Shown here one piece after another: positions 7,081 to 64,000 of a DNA stretch of 64,000 bases. The notes below the pieces were generated by a model. The model saw only the letters and a program-made list of their open reading frames with translations, was not told the DNA's origin and did no database searches. The stretch spans positions 15,957,030 to 16,021,029 of the forward strand of contig JAJEKV010000024.1 of NCBI GenBank assembly GCA_021234155.1, given 5' to 3'. The position numbers were made by a program, and so were the translations under genes. This stretch comes from Isoetes taiwanensis (Eukaryota; Streptophyta; Lycopodiopsida; Isoetales; Isoetaceae). Position 1 is the first letter of the stretch, and every line of letters starts with the position of its first letter.

Positions 7081-7646
7081 TGGTGTATTTTGCAGGGTCG
7101 ACATCATGCAGTCCATATAAGTAAGATTTTGGTGCTTATTGGAAAAAGGGGTTTTCTTCAAGAGCTTTTACTTAGATGAGGAGCAATTCTTTTACAAAGT
7201 GGGAAGGCAGAAGAGGATTCCATTGGAGGCAAGAGTTTAGAGATCGCATAAAGAACTCCATCAAATCTATTTTCTTATCAGGTGGTGTTGATATGGGTCC
7301 TCGCATGCTACGGTGGCATAAATGACGCCATTTTTAGCCCTAAAATCAAACGCTAATTAACGGGGTGTAACTGAATTTTTAATTTTTATTTTAGCACTAA
7401 ATCCCGCCCATGGGATCCTAAATTGTCAAACCTTTCTTCCTTTCCCTCTTTCTTGGAGTTTCTTAGATCGGATTCGGAAACATAGCTACTCCCCATCGAG
7501 ATCCTCGTACCCTCCTTGGTCCATTCCTTGCAATATTGTAACACCTAAAGGAATATAGTCAATAACCTGCAACCTCTTCTACAACCTGATCTGTAAAGGG
7601 TAGGGGAAAGTTCACCCTTTGTGACAAAAATGGATAATCTGTAGTC
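7081..7646. other. Intergenic, no gene recognised
   Basis: Unique-looking sequence between the minisatellite and the LINE insertion. Nothing recognised. Confidence 0.4.
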
Positions 7647-7663
7647 AACTTTAGCTTTGCCAT

Positions 7664-9713
7664 GACATGACTATATGACGACACTGTGATGGGTGCCATG
7701 TAAGGCCCTGCCACAGTTTTGCTCATAACTTCTAGCTCGAGTGTCGAATTTGGGTGTTTTTTAATGCTTTCAAAAGTCTGGAGATGTGAGCTTTCCATCG
7801 GTGTATAATTCATATAGTTTTATTGAGTCCAGCTTTGCCGAATTTGGGGTTTTCCGATTTTGGTTGTCATGACAAACCCGAGTTTGCCAGTTTTTGGAAC
7901 GCGTCCTTCAGCCATGGGTGCCCCCAAAGTGGTAGGTGGTGCCTCAATCTCTTCTTCTGTACATGATGTGAACTCTTCCCTGCCGCTTCTTAATTGACCA
8001 AATAATTCTCGCTTTAATCCTCTTGCTTTTGACTCTACTCATGCTTTTGACTCTTCCCTCCTCTTTTCAAATCTGTCCCTCTGCCTACTTCTCAAGTAGA
8101 AGCCACCATATCTACTCCTAGTGTTACCTCTGTCTCTTTTCCATCTGCTTGTGCTGGGCCTCTACTTGCCTCTTCTGCTCCTTGGAGTTCATCTGATACA
8201 GTGGCTAGGACATCCTCTACACGATCCAGTGATTGGATCAAACATGATATGGCATCTGATGGGCAATTTGCTCGTGTCTCTGTTGCATTGAATATCAGAT
8301 TGCAGAATAATAAAAAGGAATTAAGCTCATATCTTAACGAATTGCAAGCGCAAAGTGATCGTATAGATGTTCAATTGCCTTTTGAGGGTGTTTTCTATGA
8401 GGCACATGAATGTTCAAATGCTTTTATATAGACTGGTCTACCAGTTGTTGAGATTGATCACATTGTGCATTTCCAGTGTGTTCAGAATCTTGTGTTCCAT
8501 GCACTTGTGTGCCATTTCACTGGGCGATTCCTTGATCTCAAGAGAATTGGATTTTGGCTAAAGCATCATCTTCAGAGGTTGGGTCTCCCTATCATATATC
8601 TTTGAAGGTGTTGGATAAAGATAATAATTTTTTTCTAGTCATGTTTGACTCATCAGTTGCAGTTGATAAGCTTGTGGAATGTGTCGTTGATCCTTTTTGG
8701 GGACATTATCTTCTGTACCAAATTCATTCTCCTAAATTTCTGCCAAAGTAAGTCTGGTGCATTGCGCATGCCTTATTGGTTTGCATTGGAAGGTTTTCCA
8801 TTTGAATTGCAAATTCCTGATTTCATGACTGTTATTGCAAATGGATTGGATATGCATCTTGCCCATTCTATTGTTAATGGTCCTCGAATCTGTGTGTCCC
8901 TTTCCAATTGTGTTTCTATTCCACAGTCGGTGGTTAAGAGCGGTCCTCTTTTCTTCAAGTGCAAACTACATCCGCTTAAAGGACTAGAGCTTGACAAGAT
9001 GTTTCCTAGTATTGAAATTTTTGCTACTTATAGATCTAGGCAGACTCATGTATCTACCTCCCCAATTGCTTCTACACCATATCAGATAGCATCTGATTTA
9101 GCTGCATGTCTTGTTGTATCATCTTCTGATGTGTCTTCTTTTGCACCAATCTACCAGTATTACCATCTCTCGTGTCTTCTCCTCAATCTGCTTCTGCACC
9201 ATCACTTCCTTCTAGTGGATCTGTCGCTCAGATTATATCGAGCTCTGTTAGTGAGGAGCAACATTCTCGCCTTCAAGATATTGCTCACAAACAAGAACTT
9301 CTGGAAGCAGAATGGTCTTCCCCATATATAAAGAAGGCTGCATGCCAGAAGAATAGTTCAGCTCCTCCGATCCACCCAGTAGCTCTAGTATGTACTACTA
9401 TCATTATTGTGGATGTCCCTCCACATGATCCCGTGGCATTCAGACACCAGAAGACAAATGCACTTGCTCTTAATAATTCTATGGATGTGCGACTTCGGCA
9501 TGGTTAAGTTTAATTGTATTGAAGATATATGTGTATTATTCTTTTCTCTATCTTAAGAAGAAATTAGTTTTTCTTCCATTATGTTATCATGCTTAGACAT
9601 GTGTCTTTGCTCAGTTGGGTCTGTTTATGCACTGGGTTTTTATTCCTGTCTCTGCATTATATCATGTATTGTTTGCGAGTGATTAATAAAGTCTGACGTC
9701 CTTTAAAAAAAAA
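7664..9713 (+). mobile_element. LINE (L1-type) insertion with ORF1 remnants and poly-A tail
   Basis: The insertion is bounded by a perfect 17-bp duplication, AACTTTAGCTTTGCCAT, at 7647-7663 and 9714-9730. The 3' end has an AATAAA-containing stretch (about 9685) followed by an A tail (about 9704-9713). This is the signature of LINE target-primed reverse transcription. The interior is ORF1-like only; no RT or endonuclease was found. It is therefore an internally deleted, non-autonomous or ORF1-only copy, about 2.05 kb long. Confidence 0.85.
7915..9507 (+). pseudogene. LINE ORF1-like protein remnant (DUF4283-like)
   Basis: The coding sense is spread over several frames: 7915-7998, 8201-8428, 8554-8748, about 8752-9140 and 9172-9504. 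The stretch at about 8770-8900 (MPYWFALEGFPFELQIPDFM, then MHLAHSIVNGPRIC) resembles the W-x-R-L-x-G-L-P-x-E-L-W core of DUF4283-type RNA-binding domains in plant LINE ORF1 and gag-like proteins. Ser/Pro-rich linkers flank it. At least three frame changes and stops show it is not functional. The assignment rests on domain resemblance plus its place inside an insertion with LINE hallmarks. Confidence 0.6.
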
Positions 9714-19925: not shown

Positions 19926-33949
<14,024 letters not shown>

Positions 33950-34245
33950 TGCCACTGTCCGATGCTGCTCTTCCGGATACTTGTGGCAGATCAGCGGCGC
34001 AACCCCCTGGCTTCGGCGGCGCCGCTACTGGGGTGGCAGACACGGCGTTGACTAACACCTTTTTTCCAAGAAGGAAATCCCTAAGTTATTTCGAGCAGGA
34101 TGATCTTATTAACTCTATATCTTGTAACAATGGGCGCCCATAAGCCTTGCGGGGTAAGGGCCTGGCGAGCCTGTTCTGCACCCCGTGTAAGGGCCTGCGG
34201 GCGCCCATTCGCCTACGTGAAGTTAGGGGTGAGACAGATTTCAAC

Positions 34246-38860: not shown

Positions 38861-40402
38861 GGCCTTTTATAAATAAGCATATTAGTGTGGGCAGTAGCTG
38901 GGAAGATCAAAGTTTGCAGCAAATAGATGAATCGGAAGACGCAGATGTGTTGATGAAGCGGAAGAATGGAAAAGGGGTATATGGAGGGAGAAAACCTAAG
39001 TAACTAGAAATCATGAAGAAACACCATAAGCTCATGAATCATCAACCTGCTGTTAAGGGTCTCTCACTCCCTTACCATACATAAAACAGAAGCACTAACA
39101 AATCAACCGGGCCAAAGAAATAGCTGACACTCACCAGAGGATCTGCAAAGAGGGCATCCACATCTTCCATAGTCAAATTATCCATCATAGCTTAGGTTCT
39201 GGAAATTGTATCAATGCATCATAAATGGATGTAAGGATTTGGGTTCCAACGAAACAGCCTACAACCATTTCATTCTAGCTTGTGATTGTGATGTGCAACA
39301 TGCTTACAAATGCCATCCTAATTTCAAGAACTAATGGAAACAAACACAATTGGGCAAATGGGCATGATTTCCATTAAGCAATAAGTCACAAGAATACAAC
39401 AACATAAAATCCTCTCTCGCAAGCATCCTTTCCTCTTACAAATCAGACCTTAAATAGGTCGAATTCCTGCTTCAATCCGCTCCCAACTGCTTCCCATAAA
39501 CTGCTACAGAACCTTCTAGAAGTATCCCGCCACGGGAGACAACTCCCCATGCTTGCAATTGCCTCCATGTAGGCTAAGTATTTCTAAAACCATTGCCTTA
39601 CGTACATCAATTTCCATTTGCCACTTTTTTTGTATTTTCATTTTTATTTTATTTTTTTGGATTTTCTAATACAAGTACATAAAATGTTTAAACAAGTCCT
39701 TGACATTTTAATTTATCTTCGAACTTCAACTTAATTCACCTTTCCCTGTAGAGCTTCTACATGGTCGTTTATAATGACTATCATATTCTGATGGCTCATC
39801 TTTGGAGTCGTCTTTGAAGTCCTCTTTTTGATCCATACCTGTGTCAACAGCTTTATCATATTCTGCTCCCCTTTTTTTTTTAAATCATATCCTCGTAGAC
39901 TTTCGGCATTGAAAAGAAGATCCACAAGTAGGACCCGAAAAAAGAAGCCGGAATGTAGAGGATGCAGGTGTTGAATTTAGGAGTTTTTCTAATTTCAAAG
40001 GCCGTTGATCTAAGGGATCAAGGGGCCAAGTTAGCCCATGTTGGTCTTTGGATGATGTATTAGACAGGTGGATAGCTTAAAAATCCAGGGATTATTGCAC
40101 GCAGCCTGCTAACAAGAATGCATCAATCTAAAAGGCAAAAATAAGTATGTGGGGGGGAACTTAGATGTGGTTTTTTTACCGAAGTGTTTTGGGTGTTTTT
40201 TTCAAAAACTTGAGATATTCCTTTCACCTACATGCTTTCAAATAGTTACAACCATTGACACATGTAGATTAAACATGCATATAGCAAATCGAATAGTTCA
40301 TTGTAAAGGCAGGAAAACATAGTAGCCAAAGAGGAAAGAATAGAGCGATCCCACAGCAAACATGGTAACCACGAGGCTCCAACAGGAGAAAATGGGCTAC
40401 CC
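38861..40402. other. Intergenic, no gene recognised
   Basis: AT-rich, without recognisable domains or terminal repeats. A 64-codon minus frame (39925-39731) is unremarkable. Confidence 0.4.
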
Positions 40403-40885
40403 ATGCAGCGGTCACTATCTGAATCGCTTCTGGATAGAATGAATAGGTTACAGATGGAGATCCTAAGAAATTTCAAGAAAAGACACAGCACCGAGTTCCA
40501 ATGCTGTGTTAGTCGACTTGTGAAGGTAGGGGCTCATACAGGAGGAGTAGACAAAGAGGCAGACGCAATGAGGAAGCAAGAATAAGTATATTACATTCTA
40601 CAGCTGAAAAGGGAAGTAATCAGATGCAAGGCCCTGGAAATAATGCTGAAAATGATGGAGCTATGGCTGAACAATGATCTCAGGTGCCATTTCGAGAGAA
40701 ACTACCACCTCTTCCAACAGAAAAGGGAAGCACATGTGCTATTATTGCTGGACAGGATGCAGCACAATGCAGAAGAACACGACAATCTCTTGGCGATCTT
40801 CGGCAACAAACTGGACTACTCAGTCACACTGGAAGACATGATATGCGAAAATGAAAGCGGAACATTGCCGCAAGGATCAATATAA
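40403..40885 (+). pseudogene. Small unidentified ORF of the composite transposon, copy 1
   Basis: The frame continues from MQRSLSESLLDRMNRLQ into KVGAHTGGVDKEADAMRKQE, then a TAA (40583-40585) where copy 2 has CAA. It resumes in the same frame to 40885, ending ENESGTLPQGSI. The C-terminal 80 codons are rich in Leu, Lys and Glu and look helical. No domain recognised. It converges with the methyltransferase-like gene. The upstream 36 codons differ from those in copy 2, because the shared sequence starts at 40516. Confidence 0.4.
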
Positions 40886-41049
40886 ATATATCGTATGCTT
40901 GTAGACCAATGTTCTTGTGAAACCAAGCTTGTAATTTTTTTGTTGATACTATATTTTAATAGTTCATAAACTACAAAGTTCAAAAGTATTTGCAATCATA
41001 ACTTGCATGCGTAACAAATATCGACTTATGATGGCAATTATCAATCCAT

Positions 41050-42312
41050 GTCATTCCTCATCTGCCTCATCATCTACATAAATACACCGTCTTATCCTCT
41101 TTTTTGCTGGTAACAAAATTGGTGATTCAACCAGCTCAATGGCTGCATAAGGTGGCATCATACTGTTGGCAATGGCAGATCAGTTAGTTAAATATCTGCA
41201 AAAAGAATGAAAGGACATAAAATAGTTAAAAATCAAATACCAACTAGTCATCTGGTTCATCCACATCCTCGGCCATAATGTCTGCCTCATCAACATTTGC
41301 AGAAATGTCTTCAATGGCATGTTCTTTAACAATTTTATCATCAATGTTTGCGTGTTTGTAAGACAGTCGATTGTCTTTAACATCTTCATACATGTCTCGG
41401 TCTTGCTCTAGGCCATAATAATGTCTACCATGAATTGCACATGCCTCCATAAGTGAACCAACACCCGGCATTAGATCCAACACCAATGAATTTGTCGGGG
41501 AAAAGCTAGATACAATGAACTCCATGAAACGGACTGATTTCTCAAGATTGGACCTGTCATTTTTTTTCTTGGACATAAATAACTTTTCTTCATCTGGCAA
41601 GTAATGCACAATTGTCGATGCATGCTGATTAAGGTCTGCACTGCTGAAGACATTTAGAGATCCTTGGTGTTTTCAGCCCTGCACTAGAATACACTGATAA
41701 GCAAAGGTGATTATTGTTAATTGTACCAAGCTCATCTATAGTAACGCCGAAGGGTGTGGAACTGTATATATGGTACAGTCTCCTCTTTTGCAAATTTCTT
41801 TTCTTTGCATTGAAATCGATATTAGATAGTTGACCATCTGTGCATATGACTATGAAAAAGCGATTGTCATCCATACATAAATTTGCAATGGCAGTGATGT
41901 TCTCAATGAAGGTGGAGTCGCATGAATTCCATTGTGGATTTGTAGAATGACCACATGTTAGGTATTGATTTGTAGGAAGATCACAGAAAACGATGTGGCA
42001 ACCCCAATCCCTGTTCTTCCCATTCCTTTTATAACCATGATCAGCTAGCTTATTCTGTTTTCCAAATTCTCGAAGTACTTTGAAAATGGATGTCTCTGAT
42101 TCTGAAGTGAAACTTGCAGTCAAAGCAAATGCACTTGCCCATACATAACGTATAGAGCAACTACCATATTTCTTTAGATCATTCTCAGCACGATCACGAT
42201 GTCCTGATATTTGAGAATCCTTACTAAACCTATTGAGGATGACATCTTGGCTATCATGCATATGTGCCAAGTTTTCATCATTCTCTTCATCTGATATGAC
42301 AATATCACGTCT
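41050..42312 (-). pseudogene. DNA N4/N6-methyltransferase-like C-terminal fragment, copy 1
   Basis: The frame from 42312 to 41629 carries WGCHIVFCDLPTNQYLTCG (about 41970-42005). The frame from about 41650 to 41244 carries NSLVLDLMPGVGSLMEAC (about 41437-41490) and RHYYGLEQDRDMYEDV. Order DPPY-like first, then the glycine-rich SAM-binding motif I, is that of beta-class (permuted) aminomethyltransferases. The usual (D/N/S)PP(Y/F/W) is replaced by DLPT and FxGxG by MPGVG, so activity is doubtful. The two parts are out of frame around 41630-41660. A likely last exon at 41155-41045 encodes MLPPYAAIELVESP...DDEADEE. Its 5' exons are deleted. Confidence 0.65.
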
Positions 42313-43212
42313 ATGCGGCCTGTGTACAAGATCCCACCGAGCTGTGGAATCTATGGCATCATTGAAGCACCAGATAAGGGGCCGTAGTGATGAAGTGTGG
42401 AGTGGGATCTCGCCTGAGCATAAAAGGCTACGGGGACTCTTGTAGTGAGCTAAGCCTAATAGTCGGTCATGTAGAGGGCCGGGTATGGGTCTGACACTCC
42501 CTGGGTACGAGGTGTGACCCGTATGGGGCATCTTGTACTTTGATGATAAAGTTAGGGGAGTAAGTCGGGTACGGAAGGAGATGCTGATTGATCTCCTCTA
42601 GCTCACCCATGGATTCACTGCGACTCTGGAAGGAGACACTTCTCTGACCTGCCTCATCGGACTGGGGAGATGTAACCTGGAGTAGTCCCGAAGGGTGATT
42701 CCTTGGGACTGCGTCTTCGGAAGGCTACAATGGCGCCATAGCTTGATTCAGCTCGTCTGCAAAGTGTGCACAGGAGGGGCGGATGGAGTGGACAACCCTA
42801 GCCACTGTTCTATGCCAGCCAACGCCATGTTATACCTCTGTCTGCTGATCTCTTGAGACCGAGCCGTCAGTCCATCCTCACAGGAGTCTGAGCCGGGATA
42901 GAACCTGGGGTTTGGGGTGTTTTCCTTAGGACTAGATGCATATTCTTTGTCGTTAGTACTTGGATGGATGTGCCACCCTTCGTGGTGGTTATTTATGTAT
43001 GATTTATGTTGTATGCTAACATGTATTCACGCTTCCGCGACTTAGGAGTCCCATTGAAGGCGTGGGCCGAATGACATCTCCGTGTCCTTCACCCGGGCAT
43101 CTTTCTATGGATGGTTACGGAGGGCCTGCTCATGGTGAGCTGATTGCCATGGGAGGGGGAAGTCCCTGTCTGTATACGTCCGGAGCGCCGTATATATTTA
43201 GGGAGCGTCACA
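42313..43212 (+). repeat. 5'-truncated solo LTR, copy 1
   Basis: Matches the last about 820 bp of the intact solo LTR at 59859-61372 and has the same TCACA end followed by TTCACTGTGAGG. It contains about 75 bp (43054-43130) that copy 2 has lost. Confidence 0.85.
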
Positions 43213-43389
43213 TTCACTGTGAGGTAAGATGCCATATGGCATGGTAAAATTTGTATTCCCCCTTAAACACATTTTAATAGAATAGACTCAACGGTTAACT
43301 AGAAATTATGATTGTGTAATTCACGGGTACTTGCAATGTGTCTTGTGATCATTTATTGACTAAAGGCAACCATAATGAGTTGCACTGGA

Positions 43390-45777
43390 GAGGTGCATTG
43401 CAGAGAAGACATGAGATTGGTGAACTAACTTCATTCCATGGATCTATAAGCTGTGAATATTGTCATCTGGCACCAACTTGTGTGGCATGATGTTTGGTGT
43501 CCATGTACTATTGTTTGCCTAACAGAATTACAGAAACAAGACTAGCTATCCATACTGGGGAGCACGCACATCCAATTAAAAAAGCAGAATGCAGAAGTCA
43601 AGTGAAGTGGATGAGGGACTTAGTTAATTCAGACACAACCTTACGTCTTGGTGGGCCAAGACATAAACAGAATGAATTAGCTATGGATGAAATTGTTCGT
43701 TCAATTATGGGGTCATCGGAGGGAGATAGTGTTGAAAAGATGGATGCAAATCAAATAAACGAGTTATTGACAAGGTTGAAACCATTATGCAATCAAAGAA
43801 GATATGATATTGATACTATGTGAGAAACTATATTAACAAGTTAATTGACATGAAGAATCTTGTGTGTCTAGGTTAAAGAGATGGATTGATGATGCGAGGA
43901 GAAGAAATAGGCAGTGTTCAGATGATATTTCAGGATTATTGGAGTTAAAGAAAAGAAGCAAATATGAATATTTCCATGGATCTAAGTTCCCTTACCAGCT
44001 TCATGATCCGCTTAATGAACGTTGTTACATTTTCAAAATGTCTACAACTGGTCCTGGATCAGGAGTTGATTTGGTCAATAGGATGAGACCTAGTGGTGAT
44101 CTTAAGAACAGTTGGGTACATTTTGATCATGTCAAACGGATTCAAGGGCGGACAACCTTAGCTTGTCATGTGTATGATTATAAGTAAGCGGATTGTGAAA
44201 ATCAAATGATATAAGATCATTATTAAGTTTCTAACATGTTTGATTTAAGTGCAGAATTAAAGCCCTATTGACAATTGCAGTTTGTGACATGAAGACAGAA
44301 GATGCCGAGGCACAGAAAAAGTTTTGGAGGAAGCTTAATAAGGTTATGATATCAAAAGGGTTTTCCAAAGCTGAGTTTTTTGGGTTTATGGCAGACGAAG
44401 CTCAACCAAATTGGATTGCAGTTCGGGAAGTTTTCTTCAATGGGGAGATTAGACCTGAGAAAGAGCGTTCTTGTTACTTCCATTTCGAGCAGTGCATGCA
44501 TGGACATACAGAAAGACACTTGCCAAAGGAATATTGGGATGCCCATAAAGATTTGTGTAGAAAATGGCATCAATCTGCAACTGAGGAGGAAGCAGATAAA
44601 ATATACCACTCAATCATGGATTGGTGGGTAGGCAAGACTTCGGATAACCATATCAAAGTTTTGAGTTCTTGGCTATCATGGTGGCATCATAGGGTTAGCA
44701 GATGGGGTAGGTTTATGGTCAATAAACAGAACTGGCAGACAACAATACATATTCCACAAACAAACTTATCAGAGGCAAAGCATGGGAGTTGGTTAGCAGC
44801 ATCAGGAAACACAAACAATTTTTCCTTGTATGATGCCTCCCTCTTTGATCTCACAGAAGCTGTTCTTCAAAGTACCAAATACAAATCATTTCTGGACTGT
44901 AACTACTTAGGGACTGGTCCATTGTGTGTCAGACCTCTTTAACATATTGCAAAATCGTCAAAGCAGTGGTGCTAAGGCTAAGGAGGTAACCAATGTTATA
45001 AATTTGGAGACTAAAATGGCAGGCTTTGAAGAGCATGATAGCGGTGCAGGAGGTACCTTGAAGACTATATACAAAAGGCAACATTCCATAGACACAGTTT
45101 AGAAGAGAATTCAGTGCACATGTCTCTTTGGGCCATTCGAAGAACAGATGCAGAGGTCCGGTGCAAAAGGCGGAAGTCAGAAAATGGAAAAAAATGTAAC
45201 AATCCAATCAATGTATATATACAACCTACAGCTGCTCCTTGCTTTTATGGGTTAAGGGAATTTCGGGGACAACGGGTATCACAAATGATGTGGTTTTGTC
45301 CTAGTACTGTTGAATGCACATGGTTTCCAGATAAGTCTTTGGTGTGTCCTCCACAAAGACCACCGTTATGGCCTGTTGATAAAGATACTGATTTAACCAA
45401 TGAAGAGATTGAAAAACTTGGAGCAGCGGGCTTCTTATTGGGTGGTAGATCTCAATCTAGCTTAACAGTAGCCAACGCAGCATCTAGTATGCAAGCACGT
45501 AGATCCATAATGGCAGGGTCTGCTAGCTCCGTAAAAAGCAGAACAAAAATGACAAGGAAGGGGAAGGTTGTTAATTACAGGAAGAAAATGAATGAAGAGA
45601 CGAAGGTGAGATTTGAGCAGTCAAAGAGAATGAAGGTGGATTATGTGCAAGAAATGACTTACTTGAAAAATAAGCATGTGGACTATGTAGTGAAACGTGA
45701 AGATAATACATACATTGTATCCATTAAGGAAGAGCCATAATGCAGTTGTCCAGACTTCATCCACATGGCAAGGATTA
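43390..45777 (+). pseudogene. Mutator-like (MULE) transposase, copy 1, broken
   Basis: Visible parts are about 43390-43819, 43872-44183 and 44255-44939, with two GT-AG introns (43820-43871 and 44184-44254) that keep frame. A last block lies at 45114-45740. The N-terminus has CEYC...YYC and HTGEHAHPI, a zinc-finger-like pattern (FLYWCH/WRKY-GCM type). The core carries WVHFDHVKR, GFMADEAQPNW, CYFHFEQCMHGH and NLSEAKHGSW, as in MULE DDE transposases. Frame breaks occur near 44920 and 45100. A GAA-to-TAA change (45738-45740) truncates it just before the SWIM finger retained in copy 2. This copy cannot make full transposase. Confidence 0.75.
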
Positions 45778-47266
45778 ACTCCAACATAGCTAGTATAGGC
45801 AACTCCCTAGGTTCACGCAACCAAGAATTAGATTGTTCGAAATTTTGTGTGGGGCGGGGATGATGAAGGGGCGGTTGTTAAAGTGGCTTGGTGGAAGTGT
45901 CTCCGCCCCCGGGAGGATGGGGGCTTGGCCATTCTGGATTTGGCACTGCATAGTAAGGTGTTGGTCTCCAAGTTTGTTTGGAGCATTCTGCAGGATGGAG
46001 CATCTTCTCCTGGTGCGGCACTGTTATTGCAGTCTCTTCGCCATTGTGTGGCATTTGGGAAGCCATCTGTGCATGTGGAGTTGCCCTGGGCACTGTTGTA
46101 TGGTCTCCGACCTTTCCCACATGCATCCCCTTTTCTCACATGGGTGTTGCGGGCTTGGGATCATGTGTGTGTGCTCTTCCACCTAGATTATGCCTCTGTT
46201 TATCACCACTCTTCTCCTTTCTTGTGGGTTCCTCTACCCCCTGCGCACTTGCCCTTGGCTGCCACCGTGCATGCTCTCGACGCAGTTCGCTGGAGGCGAG
46301 CTCTTTGGCTCACTTTGGAGGATTGGTATTGGGATGGTCCAGCTAGCCGTGGGAGTTCTTTCGAGCTCGCTTTTGCACGAGGGGCAAAGTGGCCTGCTAT
46401 CACGGGAACAAGTGGCGAGGAGTATTCCGCTGCACATACCTATAGTCCCTCGGGATGATGTGGTGGTGCAGGTTTGGAAGATTCATCCGGATGTTGTGTC
46501 TTCTTGTTTTGTGCGGTCTTGTTACCGGGTGCTGGCTATTCATGACACACTGCCCCCGAGAGAGCAAGTGGTCTCTGCGGCTTCCGGGTTCTCGATGGCG
46601 CTCGACTTGGGCGTAGACATGGAGCTCACTTCCCCACCGAAGGTTAGGGTGCTTCGTGGCGGTGGTGCACCGCATGTCCCGGTGAATGCCCTTGTGAGTC
46701 GGGCTTAGGCGGGTGTGAGCCCTCTCTCCCCCTTGTTGTGGCCTTCATCGTGAGACTCCGTGGAGCATTGTGCGGTTTTATGCCCTCACTTGCGTGGCTG
46801 CCTGGGATTGGGTTAGGGTTCGGTTTGGTGAGATTGACTAGCCGCCAGACTTCTTTGCTTCATGTGTATCCCCGGTGCTTGGCATTCTTGCGGAAGCAAG
46901 CCTTGCATCTGTCGCGTGGCTTGGTTGGTGTGGCTGATTTAGAAGCGGCGGCGGTTGTGGATCTTTCGGGGGATTCGGCGACTGCGGCCTCTCGATTCCT
47001 CGACTTCGGTACAAGCTATTTCAAAGCTTTCTGGTGTTCCCAGGATTGGTAGAGCGGAAGTTTGCCATTTGGCAGGACTTCTTGGGTGTTGTAGATGGTG
47101 ATGGTCGGTTTGTACAGCAGTAGAGTTGCAGTTTTTCTGTGAGTTTGTTATGGAGTGTCGAGGTATCGCTGTCTCTTTGAGGCAGTTCTCCTTCCTCCTC
47201 ACTTGCTTTGTAACATTACCATTCTTTTAATATATTGACGACACAGTTCTTCAAAAAAAAAAAAAA
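45778..47266 (+). mobile_element. L1-type LINE 3' fragment with poly-A tail
   Basis: A GC-rich block (far above its surroundings) with a frame at 45847-46458. It begins FVWGGDD(E) and continues W-W-K-C-L-R-P-R-E-D-G-G-L-A-I-L-D-L...L-V-S-K-F-V-W, the C-terminal L1 ORF2 signature (WGG...W...C-x-P-x-x-x-G-G-L-G-I-x-D-L). Further frames continue to about 47050. It ends in 14 A at 47253-47266. It is 5'-truncated and interrupts homology of transposon copy 1 at 45777. Confidence 0.8.
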
Positions 47267-48321
47267 TCAGAGATTCTGCAATATTAAAGGTTAAGTGACC
47301 ATACCTCTGCCCCTTGAACTTTGAGTTTGCCCAATGAACAGGATCGGCTGCAGCAAGAATCCAAATGGTAGCTTGAGCATTAGCGGCCCGCATTTCACTG
47401 GTCACCTCATCATATTCCTCTACAGTATTGGCACGTGCTGCATTCCATAGCAAATGAACAAGTGTTGTACTCTTGAAGACCCTCCTAAAATTGTCAGCTA
47501 GATGATGCATGCAATAAGCATGGGGAACTTGTCGCCCAAAAATAAGCTCAACGTCCTTCATCAAACCTTTCTGCCTATCTGAAATGAAGGTAACTTGTTG
47601 CATATGATGCATACAGTGAAGGTAACTTGTTGTATATGATGCATACAGTTCTTTAAGTTTTGAAGGAACCATATCCAATTATCATCGTTTTCATCATTGA
47701 CTACGGCAAAAGCAATTGGAAATAATCCATCATTTTCATCTATTGTGGCTGTCAGAAGTATACCATACCGTCCCTTCAAATGTGTGTCATCCAAACCTAC
47801 GACTGGTCTGCAAGAAGCGCAGCCCTTCAAACTAGCATTATAAGCAACAAAAATTCGAAGAAAACGATCCTCACAAGACTTCTGAACAAATGCTATGCTT
47901 CCTGGATTTTCCTTCAAGATTTCTTCACACTATCCTTCCAATTTCTTATAGGCCTCTTCGTGGTCACCATGAATCTGAGAATGCGCAGTTTCTTTTGCCT
48001 TCCATGCAAGACCATAAGAAATTGTTATACCTTTTTCTCTTCTAATATCACCAATGAGATCTTTGGGCCGCAAATCAGGTTGTTCTCGAAATCTTTCAAT
48101 AGTGTGATTATCACCAACGAGATCTTTGGGCTGCAAACCAGGTTGTTCTCGAAATCTTTCAATAGTGTGATTAGCCACTCTGTGCTAACTTCTTTGTTGC
48201 CTAAATGAGCTGCTCCAGCACAATTATGCATAGCTTGAAATTTTTTAATTGCGTAGTGGGGGCCATCGTCTATGACAGATGCATGGAGACGCCAATTGCA
48301 ATTCTCAGCACCGCAAGTCAC
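47267..48321 (-). pseudogene. MuDR-type transposase remnant
   Basis: In order: a MuDR N-terminal zinc-finger-like segment (CGAENCNWRLHASVI...FQAMHNCAG), ISYGLAWKAKETA, then FLRIFVAYNASLKG. These lead into the DDE region: CRPVVGLDDTHLKGRYG (first Asp), FISDRQKGLMKDVE (second Asp) and HAYCMHHLADNFRR (the C/H motif). The end reads KFKGQRYGHLTFNIAES. Two internal tandem duplications break it: about 54 bp at 48065-48180 and about 33 bp at 47585-47655. It is clearly different from the transposase of the composite element. Confidence 0.8.
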
Positions 48322-53545: not shown

Positions 53546-53924
53546 TTGCCTTATTACATGTGCCTCTTTGCTTCAAACAGATAACTTGGCACATTACGAA
53601 TCCAGCATTTTCTCATTCAAAGCCTGTTTTAGCCAGATTAGAGCTTTTTGCAGATTGATGCAGACATATGGCAACTATAAAACTTCCAGCTATAAATCGA
53701 GTTCACAAAGGAAAAGAAGAGGATATTTGCTTTAATTCACACCTGATGCAATTCCGTAGCTTTTCCAGAAATGCTCTACACGATTTTGTCTTGCATAGCG
53801 GGCAACCTGACATCAGATTATGGGATGCCTTCTTCAACTTTCAATACAAAGGCACAAATAAGAAATGACATTTCCGGCCACTCTATTGGAGGCTCCTCTG
53901 TCTATGAACCACGAACGCCTTCAC

Positions 53925-54366
53925 TTTGTTTAAAACCATCCAACTCTACCAATAGTTGATTGAGAGTCATTTTCATGTACTGCTGGTCTTTGGGATTACG
54001 ACTCCCACCAATTGCAACAATATCCATGAAAATAATACAAGGAGATCGCTTTTTTATAGCTGCAAAGAGATCATGAACACGCCTTCAAATTCACTCCCAC
54101 TGCAGTAAAAAAATGGCACTCCTGCTTCACCAGCAATAGCCCGTGCTAGCTAGCATTGTTTTCCCTGTCCCTGGAGGACCAACAAGCAAGACACCCTTGG
54201 GAAGCTTTCCTCTAAGGCGAGTGAAACGCTGAAGTTGCAAACAGTTAGACCAAACGAGGAGAAAAAAAAGAAGCAAACTAAAGAAACATCTGCACCATGC
54301 ATCCTTTACCTTGGGATCCCGCAGTGATCCAGACCCGTGAACTATTTCCTCCAGCTCAGCCTTTGC
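53925..54366 (-). pseudogene. FtsH AAA+ protease fragment (FTSH4/FTSH11-like), captured
   Basis: Three blocks read on the minus strand. [19 protein letters not shown] lies at 54366-54312. A splice-like junction leads to [26 protein letters not shown] (Walker A, about 54230-54155). Last is [23 protein letters not shown] (Walker B region), running into [19 protein letters not shown]. Plant mitochondrial or plastid FtsH proteases have the same order. Damage: a GCTA duplication after TML (about 54151) shifts frame, the EMFVGVGARRVR segment is missing, and the FIDEIDAIGG acids are reduced to MDIVAIGG. No protease zinc motif is present. It is a dead fragment with an intron, so it was captured at DNA level rather than by retroposition. 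Confidence 0.8.
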
Positions 54367-55554: not shown

Positions 55555-55992
55555 TTGAAAACATGCTTCAAAATGCACATTCGAAGGTATTTAGAGCGAA
55601 TGAGCATACAAAAGAGCAAATTACTTGTGAAGGTAGGGGCTCATACAGGAGGAGTAGACAAAGAGGCAGACGCAATGAGGAAGCAAGAACAAGTATATTA
55701 CATTCTACAGCTGAAAAGGGAAGTAATCAGATGCAAGGCCCTGGAAATAATGCTGAAAATGATGGAGCTATGGCTGAACAATGATCTCAGGTGCCATTTC
55801 AAGAGAAACTACCACCTCTTCCAACAAAAAAGGGAAGCACATGTGTTATTATTGCTGGACAGGATTCAGCACAATGCAGAAGAACACGACAATCTCTTGG
55901 CGACCTTCGGCAACAAACTGGGCTACTCAGTCACACTGGAAGACATGACATGCGAAAATGAAAGAGGAACATTGCCGCAAGGATCAATATAA
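55555..55992 (+). CDS. Small unidentified ORF of the composite transposon, copy 2
   Basis: An open frame of 145 codons (ATG at 55555, TAA at 55990). The last about 123 codons are shared with copy 1, here without the premature stop. The sequence is Leu/Lys/Glu-rich and probably helical, ending in CENERGTLPQGSI. Its first 22 codons lie left of the shared segment (starts 55623), so the start may be fortuitous and the true 5' part of the gene missing. It converges on the methyltransferase-like gene. No function can be assigned. Confidence 0.4.
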   Translation: MKTCFKMHIRRYLERMSIQKSKLLVKVGAHTGGVDKEADAMRKQEQVYYILQLKREVIRCKALEIMLKMMELWLNNDLRCHFKRNYHLFQQKREAHVLLLLDRIQHNAEEHDNLLATFGNKLGYSVTLEDMTCENERGTLPQGSI

Positions 55993-56149
55993 ATAAATCG
56001 TATGCTTGTAGACCAATGTTCTTGTGAAACCAAGCTTGTAATTTTTTTGTTGATACTATATTTTAACAGTTCATAAACTACAAAGTTCAAAAGTATTTGC
56101 AATCATAACTTGCATGCGTAACAAATATCGACTTATGATGGCAATTATC

Positions 56150-59100
56150 AATCCATGTCATTCCTCATCTGCCTCATCATCTACATAAATACACCGTCTT
56201 ATCCTCTTTTTTGCTGGTAACAAAATTGGTGACTCAACCAGCTCAATGGCTGCATAAGGTGGCAGCATACTGTTGGCAATGGCAGATCAGTTAGTTAAAT
56301 ATCTGCAAAAAGAATGAAAGGACATAAAATAGTTAAAAATCAAATACCAACTAGTCATCTGGTTCATCCACATCCTCGGCCATAATGTCTGCCTCATCAA
56401 CATTTGCAGAAATGTCTTCAATGGCATGTTCTTTAACAATTTTATCATCAATGTTTGCGTGTTTGTAAGACAGTCGATTGTCTTTAACATCTTCATACAT
56501 GTCTCGGTCTTGCTCTAGGCCATAATAATGTCTACCATGAATTGCACATGCCTCCATAAGTGAACCAACACCCGGCATTAGATCCAACACCAATGAATTT
56601 GTCGGGGAAAAGCTAGATACAATGAACTCCATGAAACAGACTGATTTCTCAAGATTGGACCTGTCATTTTTTTTCTTGGATACAAATAACTTTTCTTCAT
56701 CTGGCAAGTAATGCACAATTGTCGATGCATGCTGATTAAGGTCTGCACTGCTGAAGACATTTAGAGATCCTTGGTGTTTTCAGCCCTGCACTAGAATACA
56801 CTAATAAGCAAAGGTGATTATTGTTAATTGTACCAAGCTCATCTATAGTAACGCCGAAGGGTGTGGAACCCAGATATATGGTACTCCTCCTCTTTGCAAA
56901 TTTCTTTTCTTTGCATTGAAATCGATATTAGATAGTTGACCATCTGTGCATATGACTATGAAAAAGCGATTGTCATCCATACATAAATTTGCAATGGCAG
57001 TGATGTTCTCAATGAAGGTGGAGTCGCATGAATTCCATTGTGGATTTGTAGAATGACCACATGTTAGGTATTGATTTGTAGGAAGATCACAGAAAACGAT
57101 GTGGCAACCCCAATCCCTGTTCTTCCCATTCCTTTTATAACCATGATCAGCTAGCTTATTCTGTTTTCCAAATTCTCGAAGTACTTTGAAAATGGATATC
57201 TCTGATTCTGAAGTGAAACTTGCAGTCAAAGCAAATGCACTTGTCCATACATAACCTATAGAGCAACTACCATATTTCTTTAGATCATTCTTAGCGCGAT
57301 CACGATGTCCTGATATTTGAGAATCCTTACTAAACCTATTGAGGATGACATCTTCGCTATCATGCATATGTGCCAAGTTTTCATCATTCTCTTCATCTGA
57401 TATGACAATATCACGTCTACTTTTTTTGTTTTTGTTTTAACTTCTCCTTGCGTTTTCTTTTGGTTTTTTTCATCTCTGGACTTGACACATCCTGCGAATT
57501 TGATGGATTAATTGAGTCTATATCTGTTTGCGGACATGCTGCCCATGTATCATTCTCTTCCTTTGGATACTCACTGTCTGGAAAATCTAACCACCAAGGA
57601 CACTCTTCAATTTCAAATTCTACTAACCTTGAATTGAATCTCTTATTCAGATTGTCCGAGTACATCCATCCTTATCATCTGTTTGCTTCCATGGTAGGAC
57701 AGAACTTGGTACTTTGTCCACGTACTTCTTATGAATAGCATGCTTGATGTACCTGGAAATGGCATGAAAGAATAATTTTTAGTGACGCATTAAGTATTGA
57801 ATTTAGATCAATAAGATTCAATGTTCGAGTACCTGAAGACTGTTCTTTTGGCACAATTGAGAAGATCATGTGCTTTATCGTAAGAAACGGTGTGGGACAT
57901 GTGTTTCTCATTGTTGACGAATATCTTCTTCCTGTACTCCATTTTCATGTAATGGAACCAAGTATGTACTGTTTCTGTAGTGTTCTCTAAATGAACAAAT
58001 TCAGGCTCATCCTCTTGTATGGCATTTAGAAGCTCCTTGCTTTTTTTTAGTACATGCTCCAACCAAGTTTCCTTTTTGATCCATTCATGAAAATCCCTAT
58101 CATTACCTGGCATTCTGTAGCTATTCATGAGGTTTGACTCAGTAGTGATAAGCAATATCCAATTGTTTCTAACATCATTGTCTACTGTTGCCTTGGCCAT
58201 ATCATATAACTTTTCTAGTGTCAATTTAAATCTTTTGTGCTCACATCTTTGGAGGTCACTGCCTTAAGCCATGTTGGTCCCAAGCTGGGGCAAACAATTG
58301 CTAAGTATTTATGTAGCTTATCTTCTTCTAACTTCTTTCTCGAATTTTTCTCGTGCTTTTAACGCTGGCATTTTTTGTGTGTGGACCTTCATCAACAATT
58401 CAATGTCATTATCAATATTGGCCTGCACATACTTGTTGTTAGTTCACACAACAAGTAAAATATTATTTGCTTGCCACATTTAACGTACCTTGTATAAGAT
58501 CTGAGCTAGCACTTTCACTCTCCAAGCACTTTCACTTCTTTAGCTCTAGCTTTTGCTATCTCTTCTTCTGTCACTTCTTTGGTAAACATTCTTAACTCTC
58601 TGGTTGCCACTTTGTGCACTGCATACAAAATGTCCTTGAGTGTCTCTCTTACAAATCCTTTCTCGTTCAGTCTACACGGAAAAAGCATTGAATTAGTACA
58701 AATACTGGCAAACAATTTATGACAAGCTCAAATTCTGATCTCACTCATTAATTCTTCTCATTGCAGCTATGAGTTCAGCTTCTCTTTTTCTATCAACCTC
58801 CACAAAGGTTGCTTGAACTCTGATGTGCATGTTCGGGGCATATGTGTATCTTTCAGAGATTTCCTCCATCTATGCATTGGTACAATGGTTCCCGTCCTAG
58901 CACAAAAACATCTTACCTGATAGATCATACCAATGTGGATAAGTGGACAGTTCTTGCTCAAAGTTTTCGTTCTCCACTTGCCAATTATCATCCCAAGAAC
59001 TGATCAATTCCTCAGTAACTGGAGTTTCTTTACCCTTGGGTCCCTTTATGGACAATATGAATTGTCCTTTTTGCATAATATAACCATCTCTTCTTAAAGT

Positions 59101-59760
59101 ATCACGCAACTGTTGGCAGTTTGGTGTAATCATTCTCACAGCCTCGTGTATTTGTATTCTGCATAATGGAATGAGGGGTGGAGGAGATTCCCTGTTTATC
59201 TCTAACTCCTTTAATGTCTGTGATACTTGATTCACAATGAATGAAGCTGGCAGCTCGTCATTATCTCCCTTACATTGTTGTGTGGCCCCAACACTATCTC
59301 CTCCTTGTTGTTGCATGACATCTATGGTTTCTCCTTTCCCTTCATCCGAGTTTACTACATTATCATCCTCCTGATTTCCACAATTATGGGGAGTAGCCAC
59401 ATCATGATGAGGTTCATTAGCATCTAATATAATGCATCATAGTTAGTACTATGCCATGTCTGTGCCAACATCAATAGCCTCTGAGATCATCTTTCGGTCA
59501 GTAATGATAGATTTTGACTGGGCAATAATCAGAGATTGAGAACTGTCTCCTGAGTTTGTTGTTGTTGTCTTATGTTTTCGAGGCTTTCTTGGTGGAGTTC
59601 TCATGCGCTCAAAGACTGGACCTTTATAATCAAGATTCTTGCGGGTGAAGTACATCTTGAAAATTCCTAGTCTAGAAGCACTAACAGATTCAACAACCAC
59701 AGTGCTAGCTACATTGGATTCCACATCTGTCGAACTTTGAACATACATAAATTGCTAGGA
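56150..59760 (-). pseudogene. Multi-exon gene with beta-class DNA methyltransferase-like C-terminus
   Basis: Exon-like blocks on the minus strand, 5' to 3': 59748-59449 (basic: MRTPPRKPRKHK), 59400-58897 (acidic start, then NWQVENENFEQELSTYPHWY), about 58870-58748 (MEEISERYTYAPNMHIRV), about 58676-58520 (NEKGFVRETLKDILYAVHKV), about 58421-57810 (helical), and about 57755-56843. The last block holds a Lys/Arg tail, DIVISDEENDEN and WGCHIVFCDLPTNQYL at about 57110-57076. Then 56716-56351 holds VLDLMPGVGSL and YYGLEQD. IV-before-I order is beta-class; DLPT replaces the catalytic DPPY. Breaks: near 58350, about 58225, 57670, an A7 run at about 57425, and 56750. It may modify or recognise DNA for the transposon, or be inert; the function is inferred from the fold only. 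Confidence 0.6.
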
Positions 59761-59858
59761 AGTACATTGAAAGTTCTAGACAAATCTGCTGTACTAACCT
59801 CACATACTCCATTTTGGAAAGGAAGCAACAATATTTGTTGTAGACCAGAGGCTTTCAC

Positions 59859-61372
59859 TGTGATGTTCCACGTATTTATATGGTATACGTATAAATATAC
59901 TGGCACATCACGTAGTAGGGATACGCCACCATGGGGTATGTTAACCTAGGGGGTTGACCTAAAAGGGATTAATTTAGCTAAATTAATCAAACCTATTTTT
60001 GTCTTCCTTCCTTCCTTCCTTCCTTAATTAACCTAATTAAATTAATGACATGCCACCTGGCCCAAATCAATTGGGCAAGGCAGGGTTTCCAATTGGGGCA
60101 CCCAAATTAGGGCTTTTGGGCCCCAATTTGAATTAGGAGCAGTTGGAGATGGAGGAGGAGAAGCAGCAGCCAGGCACCCTTCAGCTAGTCGAGATGGAGC
60201 AGCCGAAGACCAATTTGACGATTAGTCAGTAGGTTACCTTGTTGATTTATAGCATAGCGCCTCTCTGTGGTGTGTTCTCTCTCTGTTTTCTCTGTGGTTT
60301 ACCTGTTAGGCTCTCTATAGTCTCTGTATATTAGAAATAGGTAGAAATGTTAGCCTCTCTGTGGTGTGTTCTCTCTTTGTTTTCTCTGTGGTTTACCTGT
60401 TATCTCTAGTCTCTGTATGTGCTTTGGTTGATGGTTTAGTAGTTCTTTGCTTAGTTAGCACTCCGGAGATGGGGGATTACGGGGGGTAGAGACCTCTGAG
60501 CCCATGTATTGTAGTATGCTCCTAGATAGAGCCCTGTATTATTCCCATTAGATGCGGTCTGTGTACAAGATCCCACCGAGCTGTGGAATCTATGGCATCA
60601 TTGAAGCACCAGATAAGGGGCCGTAGTGATGAAGTGTGGAGTGGGGTCTCGCCTGAGCATAAAAGGCTACGGGGACTCTTGTAGTGAGCTAAGCCTAATA
60701 GTCGGTCATGTAGAGGGCTGGGTATGGGTCTGACACTCCCTGGGTACAGAGGTGTGACCCGTATGGGGCATCTTGTACTTTGATGATAAAGTTAGGGGAG
60801 TAAGTCGGGTACGGAAGAAGATGCTGATGGATCTCCTCCTCTAGCTCACCCATGGATTCACTGCGACTCTGGAAGGGGACACTTCTCTGACCTGCCTCAT
60901 CGGACCGGGGAGATGTAACTCGGAGTAGTTCCGAAGGGTGATTCCTTGGGAATGCGTCTCCGGAAGGCTATAGTGGCGCCATAGCTTGATTCAGCTCGTC
61001 TGCAAAGTGTGCACAAGAGGGGCGGATGGAATGGACAACCCTAGCCACTGTTCTATGCCAGCCAACGCCAGGTTATACCTCTGTTTGCTGATCTCTTGAG
61101 ACCGAGCCGTCAGTCCATCCTCACAGGAGTCTGAGCCGGGATAGAACCTGGGGTTTGGGGTGTTTTCCTTAGGACTAGATGCATCTTCTTTGTCGTTAGT
61201 ACTTGGATGGATGTGCCACCCTTCGTGGTGGTTATTTATGTATGATTTATGATGTATGCTAACATGTATTCACGCTTCCGCGACTTAGGAGTCCCATGAG
61301 CTGATTGCCATGGAGGGGGAATTCCCTGTATGTATACGTCCGGAGCGCCGTATATATTTAGGGAGCGTCACA
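59859..61372 (+). repeat. Solo LTR (1.5 kb) between the two transposon genes
   Basis: Begins TGTGATGTTCCACG and ends GGGAGCGTCACA; TGTGA/TCACA form the inverted ends. A 5-bp duplication TTCAC flanks it (59854-59858 and 61373-61377). Without the insert the site would read CTTTCACTGTGAGG. No internal region remains, so it formed by LTR-LTR recombination. It contains (CTTC)n at 60004 and a roughly 93-bp-spaced duplication with CTCTCTGTGGTGTGTTCTCT (60260 and 60355). Confidence 0.92.
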
Positions 61373-61499
61373 TTCACTGTGAGGTAAGATGCCATATGGC
61401 ATGGTAAAATTTGTATTCCCCCTTAAACGCATTTTAATAGAATAGACTCAACGGTTAATTAGAAATTATGATTGCGTAATTCACGGGTACTTGCAATGT

Positions 61500-64000
61500 G
61501 TCTTGTGATCATTTATTGACTAAAGGCAACCACAATGAGTTGCACTGGAGAGGTGTATTGTAGAGAAGACATGAGATTGGTGAACTAACTTCATTCCATG
61601 GATCTATAAGCTGTGAATATTGTCATCTGGCACCAACTTGTGTGGCATGATGTTTGGTGTCCATGTACTATTGTTTGCCTAACAGAATTACAGAAACAAG
61701 ACTAGCTATCCATACTGGGGAGCACACACATCCAATTAAAAAAGCAGAATGCAGAAGTCAAGTGAAGTGGATGAGGGATTTAGTTAATTCAGACACAACC
61801 TTACATCTTGGTGGGCCAAGACATAAACAGAAAATGAATTAGCTATAGATGAAATTGTTCGTTCAATTATGGGGTCATCGGAGGGAGATAGTATTGAAAA
61901 GATGGATACGGATCAAATAAACGAGTTATTGACAAGGTTGAAACCATTATGCAATCAAAGAAGATATGATATTGATACTATGTGAGAAATTATATTAACA
62001 AGTTAATTGACATGAAGAATCTTGCTGTCTAGGTTGAAGAGATGGATTGATGATGCGAGGAGAAGAAATAGGCAGTGTTCAGGTGATATTTCAAGATTAT
62101 TGGAGTTAAAGAAAAGAAGCAAATATGAATATTTCCATGGATCTAAGTTCCCTTACCAGCTTCATGATCCGCTTAATGAACGCTGTTACATTTTCAAAAT
62201 GTCTACAACTGGTCCTGGATCAGGAGTTGATTTGGTCAATAGGATGAGACCTAGTGGTGATCTTAAGAACAGTTGGGTACATTTTGATCATGTCAAACGG
62301 ATTCAAGGGTGGACAACCTTAGCTTGTCATGTGTATGATCATAAGTAAGCGGATTGTGAAAATCAAATGATATAAGATCATTATTAAGTTTCTAACATGT
62401 TTGATTTAAGTGCAGAATTAAAGCCCTATTGACAATTGCAGTTTGTGACATGAAGACAGAAGATGCCGAGGCACAAAAAAAGTTTTGGAGGAAGCTTAAT
62501 AAGGTTATGATATCAAAAGGGTTTTCCAAAGCTGAGTTTTTTGGGTTTATGGCAGACGAAGATCAACCAAATTGGATTGCAGTTCGGGAAGTTTTCTTCA
62601 ATGGGGAGATTAGACCTAAGAAAGAGCGTTCTTGTTACTTCCATTTCGAGCAGTGCATGCATGGACATACAGAAAGACACTTGCCAAAGGAATATTGGGA
62701 TGCCCATAAAGATTTGTGTAGAAAATGGCATCAATCTACAACTGAAGAGGAAGCAGATAAAATATACCACTCAATCATGGATTGGTGGGTAGGCAAGACT
62801 TCGGATAACCATATCAAAGTTTTGAGTTCTTGGATATCATGGTGGCATCATAGGGTTAGCAGATGGGGTAGGTTTATAGACAATAAACAGAACTGGCAGA
62901 CAACAATACATATTCCACAAACAAACTTATCAGAGGCAAAGCATGGGAGTTGGTTAGCAGCATCAGGAAACAAGAACAATTTTTCCTTGTATGATGCCTC
63001 CCTCTTTGATCTCACAGAAGCTGTTCTTTCAAAGTACCAAATACAAATCATTTCTGGACTGTAACTACTTAGGGACTGGTCCATTGTGTGTCAGACCTCT
63101 TTAACAGATTGCAAAATCGTCAAAGCAGTGGTGCTAAGGCTAAGGAGGTAACCAATGTTATAAATTTGGAGACTAAAATGGCAGGCTTTGAAGAGCATGA
63201 TAGCGGTGCAGGAGGTACCTTGAAGACTATATACAAAAGGCAATATTCCATAGACACAGTTTAGAAGAGAATTCAGTGCACAGGTCTCTTTGGGCCATTC
63301 GAAGAACAGATGCAGGCAGTAAGGTCCGGTGCCAAAGGCGAAAGTCAGAAAATGGAAAAAAATGTAATAATCCAATCAATGTATGTATACAACCTACAGT
63401 TGCTCCTTGCTTTTATGGGTTAAGGGAATTTCGGGGACAACTGGTATCACAAATGATGTGGTTTTGTCCTAGTACTGTTGAATGCACATGGTTTCCGGAT
63501 AAGTCTTTGGTGTGTCCTCCACAAAGACCACCGTTATGGCCTGTTGATAAATATACTGATTTAACCAATGAAGAGATTGAAAAACTTGGAGCAGCGGGCT
63601 TCTTATTGGGTGGTAGATCTCAATCTAGCTTACCAGTAGCCAACGCAACATCTAGTATGCAAGCACGTAGATCCATAATGGCAGGGTATGCTAGCTCCGT
63701 AAAAAGCAGAACAAAAATGACAAGGAAGGGGAAGGTTGTTAATTACAGGAAGGAAATGAATGGAGAGACGAAGGTGAGATTTGAGCAGTCAAAGAGAATG
63801 AAGGTGGATTCTGTGCAAGAAATGACTTACTTGAAAAATAAGCATGTGGACTATTTAGTGAAACGTGAAGATAATGCATACATTGTATCCATTAAGGAAG
63901 AGCCAGAATGCAGTTGTCCAGACTTCATCCACATGGCAAGGATTAGAGGATTATTCATACCTTGCAAGCACTTGTTGTACGTATACAATCAAGTGTTTGG
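61500..64000 (+). pseudogene. MULE transposase with SWIM zinc finger, copy 2 (cut by window end)
   Basis: Same architecture as copy 1: zinc-finger-like N-terminus (CEYC, YYC, HTGEHTHPI), then a coding block up to about 61980. A 52-nt intron is followed by 62033-62345, another intron, and 62417-63064. The core motifs are FDHVKR, GFMADEDQPNW, CYFHFEQCMHGH and NLSEAKHGSW. The C-terminal block from about 63270 ends in a SWIM finger C-x-C-x15-C-x-H (Cys 63909 and 63915, Cys 63963, His 63969). A 2-nt insertion at about 61830 gives a private frameshift; breaks near 63050 and 63250 are also present in copy 1. SWIM fingers are common at the C-terminus of MULE transposases. The gene continues past the window. 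Confidence 0.78.

Follow-up and report, generated by a model that had tools for sequence, protein, structure and literature searches.

A Mutator-type transposon family of Isoetes taiwanensis with a divergent methylase-like gene and subfamily-specific promoter palindromes

The genome of Isoetes taiwanensis harbors a two-gene family of Mutator-type transposons in which a transposase gene is arranged head to head with a gene resembling bacterial-type DNA methylases, and the gap between the two genes carries repeated palindromes that differ among subfamilies. Together, the palindromes and the methylase gene suggest that the transposon encodes a means of marking its own copies or of releasing them from silencing. 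By analogy with the VANC proteins of VANDAL elements, we consider, with about even confidence, that the methylase-gene product is a trans-acting, sequence-specific self-regulatory or anti-silencing module that binds promoter motifs. Retroelements that carry methylases and MULEs that carry anti-silencing genes are already known; what is described here is the amplification of methylase genes on two kinds of DNA transposon in a vascular plant, under selection where tested. The earlier note on this DNA knew of no described MULE with such a methyltransferase, and among the titles and abstract openings listed in the literature searches, which covered few subscription journals, none named a Mutator-type element carrying a PF01555 gene. 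A term search for "methyltransferase" in a review from 2026 on how plant transposons capture genes (PMC13317346) gave zero hits.

Copies in the window

The window, a 64-kb stretch of I. taiwanensis DNA, contains two copies of the element that are 97-98% identical (Table 1), in agreement with the two copies counted in the earlier note. In the copy on the right, the transposase exons face a minus-strand methylase gene of about 56351-59754, which reads CDLPTNQY, then LVLDLMPGVGSL and finally YYGLEQD; both the head-to-head pairing and the methylase-like motifs had been recognized before and are borne out. The same gene had been described as multi-exon. It is indeed long, but part of the exon split does not stand: its two halves are separated by a frameshift in the window copies and are continuous in the sister copy L021, so that the multi-exon appearance is partly a frameshift. 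The N-terminal exon of the copy at 55623-63945 also has two in-frame TAG stops. The introns elsewhere in the gene, as well as the number of exons, are those suggested by open frames only. Both window copies are decayed.

The proposed span of 55623-64000 holds for the gene pair and not for its limits. Position 55623 is a truncation rather than an element end, as sister copies extend further left, and the transposase gene continues beyond the right end of the window. The best left end is 40152, where similarity begins in nine of ten distinct sister loci (the exception is L006).

The copy at 40152-45777 is without an equivalent of 57420-60551 and is an internal-deletion derivative of the other copy's arrangement (42313 in the one, 57420-60551 in the other). 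Close to it lies a fragment of an ordinary MULE transposase (47199-47929; PF10551, 4e-10). By eye, the window also holds pieces resembling an FtsH-type AAA protease (53902-54366, minus strand) and frames resembling the end of a non-LTR reverse transcriptase (27678-29282, plus strand).

Table 1. Parts of the two element copies in the window, and of the second transposon type in locus L024 (coordinates of that locus).
Feature	Position	Strand	Remarks
Element copy, part common to both copies	55623-63945		Left end truncated
Methylase gene, AdoMet-binding half, motif I LVLDLMPGVGSL	56351-56779	-	Pfam PF01555 1.1e-6; PHROG DNA methyltransferase 3.2e-11
Methylase gene, catalytic half, RDWG...CDLPTNQY at motif IV position	56843-57436	-	
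Methylase gene, middle exon	57808-58263	-	KKETW block conserved across subfamilies; no significant Pfam match
Methylase gene, N-terminal exon region, PPLIPLCRI...DGNH	58744-59436	-	Two in-frame TAG stops; no significant match in Pfam or PDB
Methylase gene, probable start-proximal exon	59449-59754	-	Open frame; no Pfam match
Transposase exon, first proposed catalytic Asp (HFDHVKRI)	62016-62348	+	Motif level only
Transposase core, FMADEDQPNW, CYFHF, TNLSEAKHG	62405-63061	+	
Transposase C-terminal part, SWIM finger	63204-63998	+	PF04434 9.9e-5; gene runs on past the window
Other copy	40152-45777		Left end approximate; right end cut at 45777
Other copy, AdoMet half of methylase gene	41244-41672	-	99% identity to 56351-56779 over 142 residues
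Other copy, open frame holding catalytic half	41629-42597	-	
Other copy, transposase frames	43849-45740	+	
L024, methylase gene	about 4391-7796		
L024, DUF7869 partner	from 8537		Continued in L059

Transposase and element ends

The assignment to Mutator rests on the length of the target duplication, the terminal repeats, the SWIM finger and the motif order, because the MULE domain model PF10551 is unmatched by the family transposase (0 of 8 at E values up to 10). A different MULE elsewhere in the window is recognized by PF10551. The MULE identity put forward in the earlier note is thus upheld by these four characters and not by the domain profile. The SWIM model PF04434 reaches 22.2 bits in the window copy (cut-off 19.6) and 16.1 bits, below the cut-off, in L013; it is matched in two of the eight aligned transposases, some of which end before the finger. 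The transposase motifs follow the order D, D, CxFH, E and align with FAR1-like MULEs at an E value of 0.042, against 0.028 for an unrelated control, and with MuDR-like MULEs at 0.31. The comparison of the transposase core with canonical MULEs was not significant, and in one case only the SWIM part aligned sensibly.

Ten loci (L013-L022), chosen for long frames and the presence of both genes, were searched for 9-bp repeats beside the GGG.../...CTC ends. Exact target duplications (9/9) flank elements of 7913 bp in L013 (CGAATGGCA), 8654 bp in L015 (TGGCATAAG, plus one spurious pairing), 8975 bp in L016 (CTTCTGCTT) and 8423 bp in L018 (CAAGGGTTA), while the 8093-bp element of L019 is flanked by a duplication with one mismatch (8/9); none was found in L014, L017, L020, L021 and L022. 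Terminal inverted repeats of 34-59 bp with 80-91% identity enclose both genes in L013, L015, L018 and L019 and were undetected by BLAST in the other six loci. The bounded elements measure about 7.9-9.0 kb, have the ends GGG(GG)AA.../GAGTG... and hold both divergent genes. In five of the ten loci, both genes are thus contained in one unit bounded by 9-bp target duplications. Neither of the outcomes that the earlier note had named as refuting, a lack of methyltransferase matches or the two genes in separate, independently bounded elements, was observed. Over the longer aligned blocks, subfamily I copies share about 92-98% identity with L013, which points to fairly recent movement.

Genome-wide linkage of the two genes

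The searched assembly comprises 1,658,258,908 bases in 1110 contigs. The AdoMet-half exon has at least 152 matches on many contigs (150 of 369 candidates scored) and the transposase core at least 151 (150 of 752 candidates scored), and these counts are lower bounds because only about 150 candidates were scored per search. Linkage was counted between 149 transposase places and 205 hand-picked methylase loci, with a single entry for each locus. The 149 places were drawn from the 151 matches listed, and one match was dropped as a further piece of a place already counted. Among the matches listed, 62 of the 149 transposase places have a methylase locus no more than 12 kb away, and all 62 pairs are divergent, with 0.44 expected; within 20 kb, 70 of these listed places are divergent, one is on the same strand and 78 are without a methylase locus.

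For a test on places not selected for linkage, 5 kb were fetched about 3-8 kb upstream of the ten transposase places with frames of at least 580 aa that were listed as unlinked over 20 kb. Parts of the methylase gene were present on the expected strand in five of these, and the fetched 5 kb of the other five contained nothing of the gene. With the ten already linked, 15 of 20 long-frame transposase places are linked to the methylase gene. The gene pair is present in at least six diverged subfamilies, and a comparison of methylase and transposase distances over six subfamilies gave a correlation (r 0.49, reached by 47 of 720 permutations) that is no more than suggestive of congruence.

The methylase-like gene

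The profile search proposed in the earlier note supports the methylase assignment, as PF01555 (N6_N4_Mtase) matches above its cut-off of 26.7 bits in three of the scanned subfamilies (window 29.2, L013 36.8 and L020 39.2 bits), with L015 (16.6) and L016 (13.5) below it. The AdoMet half also matches phage DNA methyltransferases (PHROG; Table 1) and the PDB entries 5hek and 5hfj, listed as DpnA adenine methylase (E 4e-5 and 5.6e-5). The family alignment has the permuted order, with the catalytic half before the AdoMet half. Against phage methylases the profile alignment covers mainly the AdoMet half, and the match of the catalytic half to known enzymes is weaker; at the family level, the profile alignment with the sister family described below pairs DFPTN with DLPYG (pairwise E 3e-8).

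The catalytic half reads RDWG....D[LF]P[TN]N. Wherever it is readable, motif IV is D[LF]P[TNI][NS], replacing (D/N/S)PP(Y/F/W), and DPP[YFW] occurs in none of 27 rows (from 33 sequences representing about 23 distinct copies). Nine rows fall outside the reading pattern: five are D[LF]PTN by eye, two are mutated and two belong to one broken copy. The AdoMet motif, DLFAGTGS or close forms, is retained in several subfamilies. In every subfamily seen, motif IV is thus without the aromatic residue of known active enzymes. With D[LF]P[TN]N in place of DPPY as the catalytic motif, methylase activity is uncertain.

In the two subfamilies tested, purifying selection acts on both genes. By the Nei-Gojobori method, four pairs of subfamily I gave dN/dS values of 0.29, 0.31, 0.35 and 0.37 for the methylase exon and the pair L015/L018 gave 0.12; the ratios are 0.26-0.42 for the N-terminal exon and 0.20-0.39 for the transposase. 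Fisher tests of four methylase pairs, which share sequences, gave p values from 1.4e-4 to 1.5e-16. The identity of other subfamilies to L013 is 30-44% over the methylase part, 34-54% over the N-terminal exon and 45-61% over the transposase; dN/dS between subfamilies was left out, the synonymous sites being saturated, as was the MID ratio for L015 and L018, which had been computed in a wrong frame.

No relative was retrieved as a close prokaryotic or viral source by pattern searches of IMG/VR and of one genome each from 84,980 prokaryote species. Searches of phages by tblastn returned remote methylases at about 30% identity; the N-terminal exon of the second family had no phage match. A ParB-like N-terminus, considered for its GNHR look, was dropped, being without support from Pfam, a PDB profile search and the comparison with the second family. 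PF02195 gave one weak place genome-wide (E 1.49), outside the element places; profile comparison of the N-terminal part with phage ParB gave a probability of 8% for the MULE-like family and 0.3% for the second family; and the single-sequence fold (pLDDT 38) is too low to inform.

Palindromes between the genes

Repeated palindromes in the gap between the genes, first seen by word counts, share the core CGG[CT][AG]CCG, which occurs 32 times in the 13,491 gap bases of the ten loci versus once in the 86,509 bases elsewhere (position 9329 of the reversed L020). The cores are found in the gaps of seven of the ten loci, covering five subfamilies, and for these seven gaps a Markov-1 model expects 0.07 cores, with a maximum of one in 200 runs. 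The exact core is absent from the gaps of L013, L014 and L017; the first two have short gaps, and L017 carries the related TGGCGCCG in a 137-base tandem array. The core is extended to CAGTCGGCGCCGACC in subfamily I, to about GGCAACGGYGCCGTCCCCT in subfamily II, to AAACGGYRCCGTTT in subfamily III, to AAACGGCGCCGTTC at two of three sites in subfamily V and to CGAACGGCACCGTTCAAG in subfamily VI, to which the window copies belong. In the window there is one exact core, at 34017 and outside both copies, and the gaps of both copies are without it.

Exact genome-wide counts are 68 for CAGTCGGCGCCGACCAG (motif I) and 46 for the subfamily VI extension (motif VI), with zero for each reversed control. 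For motif VI, 19 of 20 clusters have a methylase or transposase place from the lists no more than 12 kb away (chance 0.005), 12 of 12 lie between the genes where both are listed, and 19 of 19 have the expected orientation; the corresponding values for motif I are 19 of 36 (chance 0.005), 8 of 8 and 18 of 19. The 17 motif-I clusters (of 36) with no listed gene nearby may be unlisted copies or derivatives. When both motifs are pooled, 38 of 56 clusters are near a listed gene, 20 of 20 lie between both genes and 37 of the 38 assignable ones have the expected orientation; the motif orientation follows the transposase.

The observed/expected ratio of CpG is 0.66-0.96 in the seven motif-bearing gaps versus 0.43-0.55 over the 10-kb loci. 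It falls to 0.47-0.86 once the cores are removed, with L019 and L020 at about the whole-locus level, so the motif accounts for part of the excess. Lower germ-line methylation of the promoter would be expected to give an excess of this kind.

A second transposon type

A genome-wide search with PF01555 gave 1444 candidates, 150 of which were scored, and among 70 of these 150 rows compared none lies within 3 kb of first-family loci, of which a part of the listed rows was used. Four fetched loci (L024-L027) read AD[LI]PYGFK and VLDAFSGSGTT. In L024 the methylase gene is head to head with the gene of a DUF7869 protein (1.5e-51), and a relative of this partner has the same head-to-head layout in L026. 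Among the matches listed, 36 of the 150 PF01555 places have a DUF7869 partner no more than 12 kb away (137 partner places were used, out of 150 matches), all 36 divergent and with 0.30 expected, and 0 of 150 are within 12 kb of the 149 MULE-like transposase places.

The palindrome TGTATTC[CT][GA]GAATACA occurs 9, 2, 10 and 2 times in these four loci, and in L024 it is mostly found in a 42-base tandem array between the genes. A 33-bp inverted repeat pair encloses both genes in L024, and no target duplication was found beside it. This second, larger transposon type has its own palindrome, TGTATTCCGGAATACA. By eye, the L024 element is apparently located inside a pentatricopeptide-repeat gene.

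Possible role and alternative explanations

A shared promoter with subfamily-specific palindromes, together with a gene resembling palindrome-acting enzymes, suggests that the product recognizes the promoter of its own subfamily, and anti-silencing or self-regulation is taken as the most likely role because of the analogy with VANDAL VANC. The methylase-gene product would recognize the palindromic motif on copies of its own subfamily and would keep that subfamily's promoter open, either by methylating the promoter motif (N4C or N6A) and so blocking host cytosine methylation, or by AdoMet-dependent binding without catalysis. Such a module would work like VANC and yet be built from a bacterial-type methylase. 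Instead of this product, the transposase or a factor of the host could be what binds the palindromes.

A wider reading, which we hold tentatively and regard as possible rather than probable, is that each subfamily applies a private code to itself, with its own methylase specificity and matching palindromes. Methylation of the shared promoter (N4C or N6A) would then block host silencing and tell self copies from those of other subfamilies, on two unrelated DNA transposon types, the MULE-like and the DUF7869 one, in a manner that resembles the modification half of a bacterial restriction-modification system. With the promoter motifs, the match between the protein of each subfamily and its target motif can be tested directly, as can the presence of 4mC or 6mA in plant nuclear DNA as a transposon product.

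It is nearly an even prospect that the methylase-like domain is without catalysis, serving to bind AdoMet or to read DNA, and that the gene acts by binding only, for which METTL14 beside METTL3 offers a parallel. This explanation overlaps with the non-catalytic form of the self-regulatory module, and the two probabilities are not exclusive. It agrees with the replacement of motif IV in every readable copy and with the AdoMet motif being kept in several subfamilies, but the second transposon-borne family has D[LI]PY and a Leptospira phage methylase has DLPY, so position 2 of this motif varies naturally, and the change from an aromatic residue to Thr alone need not abolish activity.

We regard it as rather unlikely that the palindromes serve as binding sites of the transposase, or as promoter elements of the ordinary kind, and that the methylase gene is a mudrB-like accessory transposition factor with no silencing role. 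The location of the motif in the promoter of both genes, its orientation with the transposase and the similar constraint on the two genes would all fit, but the terminal regions, where the transposase must bind, are without the exact core (the 86.5 kb outside the gaps contain a single match), and recognition of palindromes is common among type II methylases.

MULEs often capture gene fragments (PMC8903248), yet a Pack-MULE-like chance capture of a functionless fragment is highly improbable here. It is contradicted by the gene and its orientation, which are kept across subfamilies 38-56% apart in their transposases, and by the purifying selection on its exons where tested. The methylase family is mainly bacterial, but contamination by bacterial DNA, or a host gene that merely neighbors independent transposons, has a negligible probability and is contradicted by at least 150 matches on many contigs, by apparent introns, by target-duplication-bounded units holding both genes and by the lack of any relative in the IMG/VR and prokaryote pattern searches.

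Comparison with known systems

MuDR is a two-gene Mutator element with mudrB, 9-bp target duplications and a SWIM-type transposase. The family described here shares these two-gene, duplication and transposase features, whereas mudrB does not encode a methylase and the two genes of MuDR are convergent rather than divergent. With the DpnA-listed adenine methylase (5hek, 5hfj) the AdoMet half alone aligns; unlike that enzyme, the family has not kept the catalytic motif, and the long N-terminal part is present only here.

The proposed role is modeled on the VANDAL elements of Arabidopsis. Their VANC protein binds to short motifs within repeats of the non-coding DNA and lifts silencing in a sequence-specific manner (PMC10398659). 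VANDAL elements are likewise MULEs with an accessory gene and repeated non-coding motifs (here in seven of ten loci) whose targets differ by family, but VANC is not described as a methylase in that source and VANDAL terminal inverted repeats are degenerate. DIRS and Ty3/Gypsy elements with DAM or DCM are also eukaryotic transposons carrying a DNA methylase; unlike the family here, they are retroelements with the methylase within the polyprotein, and the source on them states that methylase-encoding transposons are absent from land plants (PMC6338049). Fungal DNA transposons with a TET/JBP dioxygenase similarly carry an enzyme of DNA-base modification, which, in contrast, oxidizes 5mC and belongs to fungi and to other transposon lineages (PMC12730594). 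The N4CMT of bdelloid rotifers is, like the present gene product, a permuted amino-methylase of PF01555 in a eukaryote, but it is a host gene with SPPY and a chromodomain that marks transposons for silencing (PMC8885841), whereas the gene here is transposon-borne. In a red seaweed, 66 genes with the N6_N4_Mtase domain have been reported versus 4-6 in its relatives (PMC12115072), and these genes might be transposon-borne as well.
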